In this document: one piece after another, positions 4,294-8,619 of the stretch
How the letters are laid out: every line of letters begins with the position of its first letter
Numbering within the stretch: position 1 is the first letter of the stretch
Origin: Dehalococcoidales bacterium
GTDB lineage: Bacteria > Chloroflexota > Dehalococcoidia > Dehalococcoidales > UBA5627
DNA length: 10,076 nt
Direction: 5' to 3'
NCBI GenBank assembly: GCA_012719115.1
Contig: JAAYAZ010000232.1
Span: 1-10,076, forward strand
Made by a program: the position numbers and the translations under genes
The notes under the pieces: generated by a model
What the model was told of the DNA's origin: nothing
Database searches by the model: none
What the model saw: the letters and a program-made list of their open reading frames with translations, nothing else

Positions 4294-5163
4294 TCAAGCA
4301 TTGTCATACGGTAGCCTATTTTGAACCGGTATTACTCTAAATGGTAACTGTAATTTATTAATCATCGATACTGCATTGCGCGGGGCATATCCCTGCCAGT
4401 GATTATTAAAGAAAGCAAACAATAGCTTTGTGCCAACGGCAGCAGCGCTTACTCTGTTCGTAAGCTCCTCTACTTCATTATCTGAATAAAGATACTTATA
4501 GCGTGTTTCATTATTTCCGGTCCACCAGTTCTCCCTGTTCCTGCCGTGAAAGCGAAAATAAGCCATATCGGATGTAACAGGAGTATCCGAAGCCACGGAC
4601 GATTCGAATTTTGGCTCGTCGATATTCACCCACGCTACATTATTGTTTTTAAGCATTTGAGATATATTGCTGTCATCGCTCCAGCTGCGATGGCGTAATT
4701 CTACTGCCAGACGGTATTCCGAAAATGTATTAATTATTGCATTAAGAATTTGCTTGCCGTATTCATCGTTTTTAAAAGCGGGAGGAAACTGAGCCAGCAA
4801 AGCGCCCAGCTTTCCGCTTTGCGAAAGGGGCTCGATGCTTCGTTTAAAAATATCGACATCATCGCGGGAAATGGTAGCTTCCCTACCGGTTGATTCGGTA
4901 AACATTTTCGGATGTGTAAACTTCTGCCACAGCTTGACAGTAAAAAGAAAACCATCCGGAACACGTTTTGCCCAGTTATAAACATAACCCGGATTGGGAG
5001 GCCTGTAAAAAGAGCTGTTGATTTCCACCGTATTGAAAAAACGGCTGTAGTATTCAAGCTCGTTTATCTTGCCGGAAGGATAGAAATAACCTTTCCACGT
5101 TCCTTCGCCGGACGGATACGACCATCCCGATGTCCCGATATATATGTTGCCCTGCTTGCTCAT
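4294..5163 (-). CDS. DUF72 / YecE-family TIM-barrel protein
   Basis: 289 residues, normal length for DUF72 (240-300). Family hallmarks in order: 'YIGTSGWSYPSGEGTWKGYF' near the N-terminus, 'FNTVEINSSFYRPP' (~43-56), 'GFLFTVKLWQKFTHPK', 'LLAQFPPAF', 'LAVELRHRSW', 'AYFRFHGRN', and the terminal 'FAFFNNHWQGYAPRNA'. The structural family is a TIM barrel; its biochemical activity is not established and YecE remains a name only. ATG at 5163 is preceded by AAGGGA with 8 bases of spacing. The gene diverges from the DUF6504-dnaE2 operon and shares its 105 bp intergenic region. That placement is suggestive of a DNA-damage role, but the LexA-like box lies upstream of the DUF72 promoter, so SOS control of this gene is uncertain. 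Confidence 0.93.
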   Translation of the reverse strand: MSKQGNIYIGTSGWSYPSGEGTWKGYFYPSGKINELEYYSRFFNTVEINSSFYRPPNPGYVYNWAKRVPDGFLFTVKLWQKFTHPKMFTESTGREATISRDDVDIFKRSIEPLSQSGKLGALLAQFPPAFKNDEYGKQILNAIINTFSEYRLAVELRHRSWSDDSNISQMLKNNNVAWVNIDEPKFESSVASDTPVTSDMAYFRFHGRNRENWWTGNNETRYKYLYSDNEVEELTNRVSAAAVGTKLLFAFFNNHWQGYAPRNAVSMINKLQLPFRVIPVQNRLPYDNA

Positions 5164-5219: not shown

Positions 5220-5248
5220 TTGATTTAGAACTATTGTTCTATTATAAT
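5220..5248 (+). promoter_or_regulatory. Sigma-70-type promoter of the DUF6504-dnaE2 operon
   Basis: TTGATT (5220-5225) and perfect TATAAT (5243-5248) are separated by the ideal 17 bp. The -10 lies 20 bp before the GTG start and is followed by a strong ribosome-binding site, AAGGAGG at 5258-5264. The spacer contains the GAAC-N4-GTTC operator, so repressor binding would directly block RNA polymerase. Confidence 0.75.
5227..5240. promoter_or_regulatory. LexA (SOS) box, Gram-positive type
   Basis: AGAACTATTGTTCT has perfect GAAC (5228-5231) and GTTC (5236-5239) half-sites with a 4-bp spacer, extended by a flanking A/T pair. It matches the core of the Bacillus DinR/LexA consensus CGAACRNRYGTTYC, though the inner bases fit it only partly. 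It sits between the -35 and -10 of the promoter for a DnaE2-like polymerase, a typical SOS target. No lexA gene is in the window. Confidence 0.75.
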
Positions 5249-5268: not shown

Positions 5269-5526
5269 GTGGCAAAACTTATCGGTGAACCGGTAAAAGT
5301 ACATCAAAAACAGGTTGATGAAGACACCTCAATCACCGCTTTTATCTGGAGAAAACGGCTCTACCGGGTTAACGAGGTTATCAACTGGTGGCGTGAACCT
5401 GCCGACTGGTGGGCAGGAAATACCCTGCGCTTCTTTGTGCAGGTGGATGCCACTAATTCCTCTACCTGTACATATGAACTTTATAAAATGGGAAAGTCAT
5501 GGTTTTTGTCACGTGTTCTCGATTAG
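5269..5526 (+). CDS. DUF6504 family protein, mutasome-associated small protein
   Basis: 85 residues starting at GTG; AAGGAGG ends 4 bases upstream, which supports this start over the overlapping ATG at 5267 in another frame. The sequence shows the DUF6504 pattern: LIGEPVKV at the start, AFIWRKRLYRVNEV in the middle, two tryptophan pairs (NWW and DWW), then YELYKMGKSWFLSRVLD at the end. In Actinobacteria, DUF6504 genes commonly sit beside translesion polymerase genes (imuB / dinB and dnaE2). Here the gene lies 9 bp before a dnaE2-like gene and its stop codon overlaps the ribosome-binding site of that gene. A small accessory role in SOS translesion synthesis is inferred; no activity is known. 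It is the first gene after a promoter with a LexA-like operator. Confidence 0.85.
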   Translation: MAKLIGEPVKVHQKQVDEDTSITAFIWRKRLYRVNEVINWWREPADWWAGNTLRFFVQVDATNSSTCTYELYKMGKSWFLSRVLD

Positions 5527-5535
5527 GATACCTAA

Positions 5536-8500
5536 ATGAACTTCATTCATCTTCACGTACATTCACAATACAGCTTTCTCGACGGAGCTTCCACCATTGA
5601 CGACCTGTTGCAGAAGGCAGAACAGCTTAAAATGCCCGCTATTGCTTTAACAGACCACAACCGATTGACCGGTGCTATCCGTTTCTACGAAAAAGCGAAA
5701 GCATTGGATATAAAACCTATAATCGGCGTAGAACTATCCTTAGAAGGCGGGCATCACCTCACGCTTTTGTGTAAAAACAAGCAGGGTTATTCCAATCTTT
5801 GCAGTTTGATTACAGAGGCACACCTGTCAAACAGGGGGAAAGCTCCGCTTGCCTCAAAAGAAATGCTTTCTAAATATAACGAGGGGTTGATAGCTCTTTC
5901 CGGCTGTGATAAAGGGGAATTGCCTGTCCTTCTGAATAACGGCAAAATTGATGATGTAAACGCCGCCTCTGATTTCTATCGCGAAGTCTATGGCAATGAT
6001 TTCTTTATAGAACTTATCCGTTACCCTCAAAAAGAGTATATGGCAAACAGCTATCGGTTAATCGAATTTGCCAATGAAAAAGGATTGCCCGTTGTTGCCA
6101 CCAACAATGTCCACTACGCCGATATGGACAGATATAGGATAAAAGAACTGTTGAATGCCATCGACCAAAACATTCCTGTATCAAAGTTAAACGACTTTCG
6201 CACCGTGGAGCAATACCTCAAATCTGCTAAAGAAATGGAAGGGTTGTTTTCGGATATTCCGGAGGCTATCGAAATGACTGCAGAAATTGCCGGCAGGTGC
6301 AATTTCGAGCCGGAACTGGGGAAGTTGCATTTCCCGGGATTTGGCGTTCCCAAAGGGGAAACCGAATCCTCTTATCTTTCGAAAATAGCTTTAAAAGGCG
6401 TCCGAAAAAGATATGAGATATTATCCCCATCGGTTATGGAAAGATTGCAATACGAACTGGCAACAATTGAAAAGCTCGGTTTTTGCGGCTACTTCCTGGT
6501 TGTCTGGGATATAGTCAGGTGGGCAAGAGCTTGCAATATCAGGTGCCAGGCGAGGGGTAGCGCCGTAGACAGTCTGGTGGTATATGCTCTTGGGATAAGC
6601 ACCATAGACCCTGTAAAGCATAACCTGCTCTTCGAACGCTTTATGCATGAATTAAGGCGGGAACCACCCGATATCGACCTGGATATGGACCGCAGGCGTC
6701 GTGACGAGGTCAGGAATTATATATACGACAGGTACGGTGCCGAAAATGTTTCCTGCATCGGAACAATTAACACATATATGGCAAGGGGGGCAATCAGGGA
6801 TGTCGGAAAGGCGCTCGCACTTCCTAAAGAAATAATTGAAGAGGCTTGCGCAGGAATCCACTGGCTATCGGCGGCACAACTTTTACAAAAGATGGATACC
6901 CGTCCCGAACTGAAGAACAGCGATATCTATCACCGTCCCGAAATGGAGGATTTTTTCAAGATGTGCGCTTCGATTGACGGCTTTCCCAAACACCTTTCGG
7001 TGCACCTGGGCGGTTTATTAATCGGAGATGAAAAGCTGTCAGGTATGGTCCCGCTGGAATATTCGAGCGGCGGGGATATCATCAGTCAATACGACAAGGA
7101 CGATATCGAGAAACTGGGTATCGTCAAGATGGACCTGCTGGCATTGCCTACTCTTACTGTGATTGAAGATACCATTACAAATATCAAAAAAAACCGCAAT
7201 ATAGATATAGACCTTGATAATATAGACCGCAACGACACCCAAGCGTTTGCCATACTAAGGGAAGGTAAAGCTATCGGCGCCTTTCAACTGGAATCCCCTG
7301 CCCAGCGTGAAATGGCGGGAAGATTATTACCGGACCGATACGAGGATATCATTATCTCGATATCGCTGGTAAGGCCGGGGCCGCTCAAATCCAATATGGA
7401 TAAGGACTATCTGCCGCGCCGCCACGGTAAAAAAGCGGTGACATATCTTCATCCGAAGCTGAAAAATGCCTTAGACGAAACGCTGGGTGTCATCCTGTAT
7501 CAGGAGCAGGTTTTGAAAGTGGCACACGACCTTGCCGGTATGAGCTATGCCGAAGCGGATGGGTTCAGAAGGGCGATGACCCATGACCGTTCCGGGGAGG
7601 AAATGGAAAAGATGAGAAAGTCTTTTATCTTGTCCGCTGCCAAAAACGGAGTGAGCCGGAAAATATCCGAAAAGGTATTTGAACAACTGGCAGCCTTTGC
7701 CGCCTATGGATTCTGCAAAGCACACGCCGCCGCCTATGCCGAACTGGCTTACCAGACCTTGTGGCTGAAATGCCATTATCCGGCAGAGTTTTTTGCCGCT
7801 ATATTATCTAACCAGCCGATGGGTTATTACCCGCCTCGTGTGCTGCTGGCTGAGGCTAAAAGAAGCGGTGTGAAAATATTGCCGCTTGATATCAATCGTT
7901 CACTTAGAGATTATTCTGTTGAAGGGAATGCTATCAGAATCGGCTTTATGCAGCTTAAAGGCCTCTCATCCGAAGCTATCGAATCGATATTAAGTGAAAG
8001 GGATAAATCGAATTTTAATTCATTCAGAGATTTTATATTAAGGGTTGGTATAAATCGTAACTCGGCAGAGAATCTTATTAAAACCGGCGCCTGCTCGGCT
8101 TTCGGTACGGCAGACGGGTTATTATCTGAAATTCCAAAGCTTTTCAATCTAAAGCACAAGTATTTAAAAGGCAGCTTACCGATGTTTGCGGATATTGACA
8201 TATTTGAGGCTGCCACGCCGGAAAAATCAAAAGGCAGCCGGGGAGCAGATATATTTATCGAGCGCAAGTTGCTTTCGCTGGATATCTCTTCACATCCGCT
8301 CAACTTCTTCAACATCAATGCCGGCATTACACATATGAAAGACCTGAAGGATAAAAGTACCGGAAATACAGTCAGCATTGCCGGCTCGGTAATCCGCTAC
8401 CAGACACCGCCTACCAGAAACGGAAAGCGGGTTATGTATATCATAATGGAGGACGGCACCGGTATTGCCGATATCACTGTTTTTAATGACGTTCAGGAAA

Positions 8501-8619
8501 AATACGGGAACATTTTATTCAGAGAGGGCTGGTTGCTGGTAAGGGGCAAAATACAAAGAAGGGGACCGAAAGCCTTATCCATCATTGCGGAAGAATTGTC
8601 GCCGCTAACGTTAAGTTAA
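5536..8619 (+). CDS. dnaE2: Error-prone DNA polymerase III alpha subunit, DnaE2/ImuC type
   Basis: 1027 residues, matching DnaE2 (about 1000-1100) rather than replicative DnaE1 (about 1160). The N-terminal PHP domain (~1-210) keeps most metal ligands: H7 and H9 in HLHVHS, D40-H41 in LTDHN, E66 in GVELS, and H193 in TNNVHYA, where DnaE1-like proteins have TNDVHY. The palm carries PDIDLD with D381 and D383, and KMDLLAL with D533, together the probable catalytic triad. The fingers contain LVRPGP and LYQEQVLKVAHDLAGMSYAEAD. QPMGYYPP at 760-767 is a DnaE2 hallmark, followed by a helix-hairpin-helix region (~800-855) and a C-terminal OB fold (~945-1020). Start ATG 5536 has AGGA 7 bases upstream. 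I see no long tau-binding C-terminal domain, and only a poor candidate clamp motif near LPMF (881-884). Expected role: damage-induced translesion synthesis, normally with ImuA/ImuB. Confidence 0.93.
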   Translation: MNFIHLHVHSQYSFLDGASTIDDLLQKAEQLKMPAIALTDHNRLTGAIRFYEKAKALDIKPIIGVELSLEGGHHLTLLCKNKQGYSNLCSLITEAHLSNRGKAPLASKEMLSKYNEGLIALSGCDKGELPVLLNNGKIDDVNAASDFYREVYGNDFFIELIRYPQKEYMANSYRLIEFANEKGLPVVATNNVHYADMDRYRIKELLNAIDQNIPVSKLNDFRTVEQYLKSAKEMEGLFSDIPEAIEMTAEIAGRCNFEPELGKLHFPGFGVPKGETESSYLSKIALKGVRKRYEILSPSVMERLQYELATIEKLGFCGYFLVVWDIVRWARACNIRCQARGSAVDSLVVYALGISTIDPVKHNLLFERFMHELRREPPDIDLDMDRRRRDEVRNYIYDRYGAENVSCIGTINTYMARGAIRDVGKALALPKEIIEEACAGIHWLSAAQLLQKMDTRPELKNSDIYHRPEMEDFFKMCASIDGFPKHLSVHLGGLLIGDEKLSGMVPLEYSSGGDIISQYDKDDIEKLGIVKMDLLALPTLTVIEDTITNIKKNRNIDIDLDNIDRNDTQAFAILREGKAIGAFQLESPAQREMAGRLLPDRYEDIIISISLVRPGPLKSNMDKDYLPRRHGKKAVTYLHPKLKNALDETLGVILYQEQVLKVAHDLAGMSYAEADGFRRAMTHDRSGEEMEKMRKSFILSAAKNGVSRKISEKVFEQLAAFAAYGFCKAHAAAYAELAYQTLWLKCHYPAEFFAAILSNQPMGYYPPRVLLAEAKRSGVKILPLDINRSLRDYSVEGNAIRIGFMQLKGLSSEAIESILSERDKSNFNSFRDFILRVGINRNSAENLIKTGACSAFGTADGLLSEIPKLFNLKHKYLKGSLPMFADIDIFEAATPEKSKGSRGADIFIERKLLSLDISSHPLNFFNINAGITHMKDLKDKSTGNTVSIAGSVIRYQTPPTRNGKRVMYIIMEDGTGIADITVFNDVQEKYGNILFREGWLLVRGKIQRRGPKALSIIAEELSPLTLS

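Follow-up and report, generated by a model that had tools for sequence, protein, structure and literature searches.

The locus and its promoter

The window (the whole 10,076-nt stretch of contig JAAYAZ010000232.1 that was analyzed) carries a plus-strand operon of a small DUF6504 gene (5269–5526, 85 aa) and a DnaE-type polymerase gene (5536–8619, 1027 aa). The DUF6504 gene starts with GTG at 5269, with AGGAGG ahead of it, and the polymerase gene begins with ATG at 5536, 9 nt past the DUF6504 stop. Divergent from the operon, and sharing its intergenic region, is a minus-strand DUF72 gene (4294–5163; PF01904 match). A DUF72 match lies in the same divergent arrangement at 8 of the 23 related loci described below, and frames that by eye resemble DUF72 genes diverge from imuB cassettes at three further loci (L086, L087, L090).

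Upstream of the operon, a −35 hexamer TTGATT (5220–5225, plus strand) and a −10 hexamer TATAAT (5243–5248, plus strand) are separated by the 17-nt spacer TAGAACTATTGTTCTAT. This spacer contains the predicted LexA-type operator, a dyad of two six-nucleotide arms (TAGAAC-TATT-GTTCTA, 5226–5241, plus strand); the −10 hexamer follows 2 nt past its 14-bp box, AGAAC-N4-GTTCT. Direct reading confirms the perfect GAAC-N4-GTTC dyad of the original prediction within the spacer and extends it, both arms of the longer TAGAAC-N4-GTTCTA dyad being perfect. The core occurs once in the whole window, as had also been noted. Both hexamers recur in relatives, all 23 named loci having TTGACA, or a sequence close to it, at the equivalent place.

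DUF6504 corresponds to ImuB-C

The 85-residue protein scores 32.1 bits on Pfam DUF6504 (PF20114), for which the cut-off is 24.2. The same profile matches the C-terminus of the Chelativorans ImuB (residues 429–502, 27.8 bits, above cut-off), a protein that also has a Y-family domain, is flanked by ImuA and an error-prone polymerase, and is named "DUF6504 family protein" in its record. It also passes the cut-off for an 80-aa Deinococcus deserti protein, encoded between imuY and dnaE2 and annotated as DUF6504, which has been published as a standalone ImuB-C (PMC8072749). From these two profile matches, DUF6504 is ImuB-C, the domain described by Aravind et al. in 2013 (PMC3765255) and by Timinskas and Venclovas in 2019 (PMC6511836), and the window protein is a standalone copy of it. 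Three other alphaproteobacterial ImuB proteins gave weaker PF20114 matches, below cut-off, and those of Burkholderia and Thermomicrobium gave none at E ≤ 0.1. A literature search on DUF6504, with most subscription literature outside its coverage, returned no paper.

The small proteins encoded between imuB and dnaE2 in cassettes of order relatives are less clearly related. Profile comparison with DUF6504 gave a weak match (probability 23.4%, E 0.00087); in Pfam, one of six matched DUF6504 at E 0.02 and five matched nothing. The small cassette protein of G008 matches PF20114 above cut-off, and the G006 cassette contains no separate small gene.

A DnaE2-like polymerase of separate lineage

The polymerase has PHP, polymerase, fingers, HhH and OB-fold (residues 946–1024) domains and no C-terminal tau domain in Pfam, which is the DnaE2 layout. 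The original prediction placed the dyad before DUF6504 and a DnaE2-like polymerase; the gene order is as described, while the DnaE2 assignment is left unclear by both the family scan and the trees. On the NCBIfam error-prone model the protein scores 858.2 bits, below the cut-off of 939, and on the Pol III alpha model 927.7 bits, higher but likewise below cut-off. DnaE2 proteins from imuB-linked cassettes also straddle the error-prone cut-off, with two below (860.3 and 837.2) and that of G008 above (1158.4). In three trees (unrooted, with DnaE2B barely sampled) DnaE proteins of the window type group together in a single clade (100/100 support). Two of the trees place this clade outside the sampled replicative DnaE proteins of Escherichia coli, a Clostridium relative, Fusobacterium and order relatives, outside DnaE3 of Anoxybacillus and outside the sampled DnaE2. 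In the third tree, which has more references, the DnaE2 group loses firmness and the window-type clade joins the Nonomuraea gerenzanensis DnaE (86/97), a single long-branched row that is its one link to DnaE2B. Since none of the sampled DnaE1, DnaE2 and DnaE3 clades includes the protein, DnaE2 serves as a working label only and the enzyme is called DnaE2-like here.

The catalytic aspartates are retained, as are most PHP ligand positions; one PHP position is Asn in the window-type rows and Asp in the relatives' DnaE1. The clamp motif is weak, and among the 120 homologs listed 82 have Pro as its third residue, of the kind described for DnaE2 (PMC3919608). The C-terminal SRDF[H/R] motif is absent from the window-type rows, and most of the DnaE2 rows aligned with them have variants of it; it is reported in about 77% of DnaE2 and is not universal (PMC3919608). 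PF07733 matches two proteins of the source genome, the window DnaE and a second DnaE of 1227 aa.

The strongest competitor to an error-prone role is that this is an SOS-induced accessory or back-up DnaE that is not error-prone, with ImuB-C serving as a processivity or DNA-binding aid, a reading compatible with LexA control. It would account for the position outside the sampled DnaE2 clade, for the higher score on the Pol III alpha model and for the mostly retained PHP ligands. The lack of a tau domain, the Asn for Asp replacement, the DnaE2-like clamp motif, the pairing with ImuB-C and the presence of a separate 1227-aa DnaE in the genome argue against it. On balance we consider it unlikely, though to be taken seriously, and favor an error-prone DnaE acting with ImuB-C.

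LexA and its predicted sites

The source genome (G000) is a draft of 1.25 Mb in 268 contigs, 84.7% complete. It encodes one RecA above cut-off and one LexA domain protein of 217 aa, supplying the lexA gene on which the original prediction depended. This protein passes the NCBIfam lexA cut-off (154.4 vs 110.95 bits), aligns over its full length with solved LexA proteins and has the Ala-Gly, Ser and Lys positions of LexA self-cleavage. Exact AGAAC-N4-GTTCT sites number three in the draft, upstream of lexA (contig C52, within its own promoter), of an AAA ATPase gene taken from its sequence for rarA, and of the DUF6504-dnaE operon. A further 11 sites carry one mismatch, seven of them within open reading frames.

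The original prediction named recA, lexA, uvrA and dinB as genes before which the dyad might be sought. The lexA box is exact; dinB was not found, and recA and uvrA have no box within 300–320 nt upstream, the best match being 7/10 for both, so that these two are rejected as targets and the predicted LexA regulon is small. A one-mismatch site near recA falls within a 224-aa frame 3′ of it, which we take to be recX. As regards regulon membership of the DUF6504-dnaE operon, its predicted operator overlaps the promoter, lying between −35 and −10.

Exact sites total 71 across 61 genomes, and 30 of them lie within 250 nt upstream of four target families (lexA 17, Y-family/imuB 5, DUF6504 4, rarA 4), against 0.04 expected under uniform placement. 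The target set is partly post hoc, rarA having been added after the own-genome result; without it the count is 26 of 71. Enrichment of the dyad at other SOS genes is thereby borne out, with uvrA checked for a box at the source genome's own promoter only. The six genomes of the genus contain 18 exact sites, 13 of them before lexA (all six genomes), rarA (four) and DUF6504 (three); the remaining five belong to G001 (three) and G002 (two). Seven imuB-dnaE2 cassettes were found in order relatives; upstream of imuB, those of G006, G013, G032 and G045 have an exact box, those of G021 and G051 one of 9/10, and that of G008 none. Because these cassettes mostly have the box before imuB, the operator is tied to the cassette whichever gene leads it.

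Two further groups of exact boxes were seen. Those at L102 770, L104 2263 and L117 1821 (G001, G002 and G044) precede similar-looking genes whose proteins start MTNKYHSDTQ or MADRYHSDTQ. Those of L113 and L114 (G046) stand beside genes of phage-like appearance on visual inspection, an arrangement suggestive of SOS-controlled prophage genes.

A different repressor with a GAAC-type half-site could in principle bind the dyad, in which case the operon would answer another signal. The DUF72 gene in the shared intergenic region, which may itself be under control of the box, lends this some substance. The same motif, however, stands before lexA in six of six genus genomes, and the remaining box targets are repair genes. 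It is also reportedly the LexA motif of Dehalococcoides. We therefore regard control by another repressor as improbable. That the dyad is the core of a known LexA box had been part of the original prediction, and GAAC-N4-GTTC is indeed a published motif of both Bacillus subtilis and Mycobacterium tuberculosis LexA (PMC3323433), which likewise favors LexA over another repressor.

Conservation of the operator

Two DUF6504 peptide patterns, scanned against the contigs of 84,980 species, matched at 24 loci; 23 of these, in Dehalococcoidia/Chloroflexota, were kept, and L148, a proteobacterial match of short length, was dropped. At least five of the 23 named loci (L125, L126, L127, L129 and L144) are, judged by length, contigs also found among the genomes of the relatives, and L138 and L142 come from one genome. 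Together with the window these loci give 24 promoters, all of window-type genes as selected by the peptide patterns, and as the promoters are related by descent they do not count as independent. The box scores at least 8/10 in 24 of 24 promoters and at least 9/10 in 23, and is exact in 11; among 2014 control windows of 100 bp taken at these loci, 52 reach 8 and four reach 9. Its setting is equally constant, with the −35 hexamer ending 1–2 nt before the box and the −10 hexamer beginning 2 nt after it, while the DUF6504 proteins behind these boxes are 45–99% identical. The dyad was thus retained in every operon-bearing relative with a readable promoter (24/24 of the window type). In G011 the contig ends at the window-type dnaE, placing its promoter outside the readable sequence. 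Within the genus, the closest relatives of the window DnaE in G003 and G004 are dnaE fragments with stop codons, in stretches that contain no box, and in G002 (98% complete) nothing matched the window DnaE, not even a replicative DnaE.

That the dyad is a chance palindrome in the AT-rich promoter of a constitutive operon is scarcely credible: the window alone, in which three matches with at most one mismatch compare with 2.85 expected from shuffles, would allow it, and the evidence for the operator therefore comes from the genome and the relatives, where the retention of place and sequence in 24 of 24 promoters and the rarity of exact sites in the genome (only three, all before plausible targets) reject it.

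The left half-site is changed in 13 of the 24 operators (L127–L134, L137, L143 and L145–L147), all outside the genus, with one mismatch in 12 and two in one; the changed forms are mostly AGCAC or AGTAC and might tune LexA affinity.

The association does not extend to DUF6504 at large. PF20114 matches 27 proteins in the 61 genomes, six of which are window-type with a box in place (exact in four, 9/10 in one and 8/10 in one). The remaining 21, all more distant, have no box at a promoter-like place; two reach 8/10, but at 165 and 252 nt. For one of the 21 (L023) the position is possibly wrong, and some lie inside operons, as in G008 behind imuB, so that a box directly upstream is not expected for these. 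Given the 21 matches without a box, the operator belongs with the window-type ImuB-C gene. In G037:C14 and G058:C34 a more distant DUF6504 gene follows closely behind lexA in the same orientation, an arrangement resembling a lexA-imuB-C operon.

Downstream of DUF6504, 19 of the 23 loci have a window-type dnaE directly following, some of these genes ending at contig ends; L141 has a truncated DUF6504 and no dnaE. No match to ImuB or DinB at E ≤ 1e-5 was found in the stretches of the 23 named loci (flanks up to 6 kb).

A probable SOS mutasome without ImuB

Y-family polymerases (PF00817) were detected in 42 of the 61 genomes and in none of the six of the genus (80–98% complete), the source draft included. 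The three genus genomes that carry the operon (G000, G001 and G005) are 85, 80 and 91% complete, and the chance that a Y-family gene was lost to draft gaps in all three is by simple arithmetic about 0.3%, if gaps are independent. A RecA-family search of the source genome, in which no ImuA-specific model was applied, gave recA and one weak match (19.1 bits, a 459-aa frame).

Taking together the box, the pairing with ImuB-C and the lack of a detected Y-family gene in six genus genomes, the unit is most likely a LexA-repressed mutasome of polymerase and ImuB-C that lacks ImuB. Judged from sequence, we are confident that the dyad is a LexA operator and that DUF6504-dnaE is repressed by LexA and induced by damage, its two products probably giving error-prone synthesis. 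The sequence evidence fits the standard LexA mechanism, in which the repressor covers its operator until damage-driven cleavage removes it. In the undamaged cell, a LexA dimer seated between −35 and −10 would block RNA polymerase at the DUF6504-dnaE promoter. Upon DNA damage, RecA filaments would promote self-cleavage of LexA, leaving the operator free and allowing ImuB-C and DnaE to be co-expressed. ImuB-C would then probably dock on the PHP domain of DnaE and help bring the polymerase to the damaged template, with error-prone synthesis as the expected outcome.

The composition of such a unit, polymerase plus ImuB-C, and LexA-type control are known already; what is new is Chloroflexota as a phylum, the conserved operator, the place of the polymerase in the trees and a genus in which no Y-family gene was detected. 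In the actinobacterial DnaE2-[ImuB-C] modules described in 2026 (PMC12926913) a DnaE2-type polymerase is linked only to a standalone ImuB-C, with neither ImuA nor ImuB, and a contact between the DnaE2 PHP domain and ImuB-C has been modeled for them; the window operon resembles them in pairing its polymerase with a standalone ImuB-C and in lacking ImuB. As far as that account goes, the modules are confined to Actinobacteria, whereas the present unit lies in Dehalococcoidia and has a conserved predicted LexA operator. Solo ImuB-C with DnaE2, with or without an inactive DinB, was already mentioned by Aravind et al. (PMC3765255), in what appears to be an account without the analysis of operator and Dehalococcoidia given here. 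The Deinococcus operon, which is under LexA control, as is predicted for the window operon, resembles the latter in having ImuB-C, annotated as DUF6504, directly before dnaE; in contrast to the window operon, it includes lexA and the inactive Y-family protein ImuY. In D. deserti the GAAC-N4-GTTC core was found only inside imuY, with none before the operon.

Closer to the source organism, a LexA study of Dehalococcoides ethenogenes (J. Bacteriol. 2002) is said to have described a GAAC-N4-GTTC operator, a self-regulated lexA, an unbound recA and a bound uvrA. The source genome is alike in motif, lexA box and lack of a recA box, and differs in that its uvrA has no box. Literature searches on the Dehalococcoides LexA SOS box and on error-prone DNA polymerases of Dehalococcoidia returned no paper, most subscription literature lying outside their coverage, and in the parts of the sources seen, a search on Chloroflexi LexA with a GAAC motif gave nothing on Dehalococcoidia.

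With this unit, a class that is mostly uncultured would have LexA-controlled repair that is inducible and probably mutagenic, in genomes where no Y-family polymerase was detected. For the ImuB-C domain, which is poorly understood, it also provides a naturally ImuB-free system, in which the sufficiency of polymerase and ImuB-C for translesion synthesis can be asked directly. It is tempting to go further, and to speculate that small-genome Dehalococcoidia possess a minimal two-protein SOS mutasome with no Y-family protein in the cell, that its DnaE lineage stands apart from classical DnaE2, and that the LexA-controlled window-type ImuB-C is a portable adaptor, used with DnaE, with a UvrD-type helicase or alone; we put this forward tentatively, as a possibility that may well prove too broad.

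Some window-type DUF6504 genes have other neighbors. In one contig (L144 and, judged by length, also L099, 1900–2950) the gene behind DUF6504 of the window type, which has an exact box before it, encodes a UvrD-type helicase, and L128 encodes a helicase 84% identical to it near a DUF6504-dnaE operon. At L138 and L139 (around 5950–6250) a lone DUF6504 gene with an exact box is followed by frames resembling ABC transporter genes, and by neither dnaE nor helicase. Outside Chloroflexota, the Nonomuraea (Actinomycetota) DnaE gene has a DUF6504 gene in front of it that scores 62.4 bits, and GAACATATGTTC lies 67 nt upstream of that match, containing the sole GAAC-N4-GTTC core of the 10-kb stretch.
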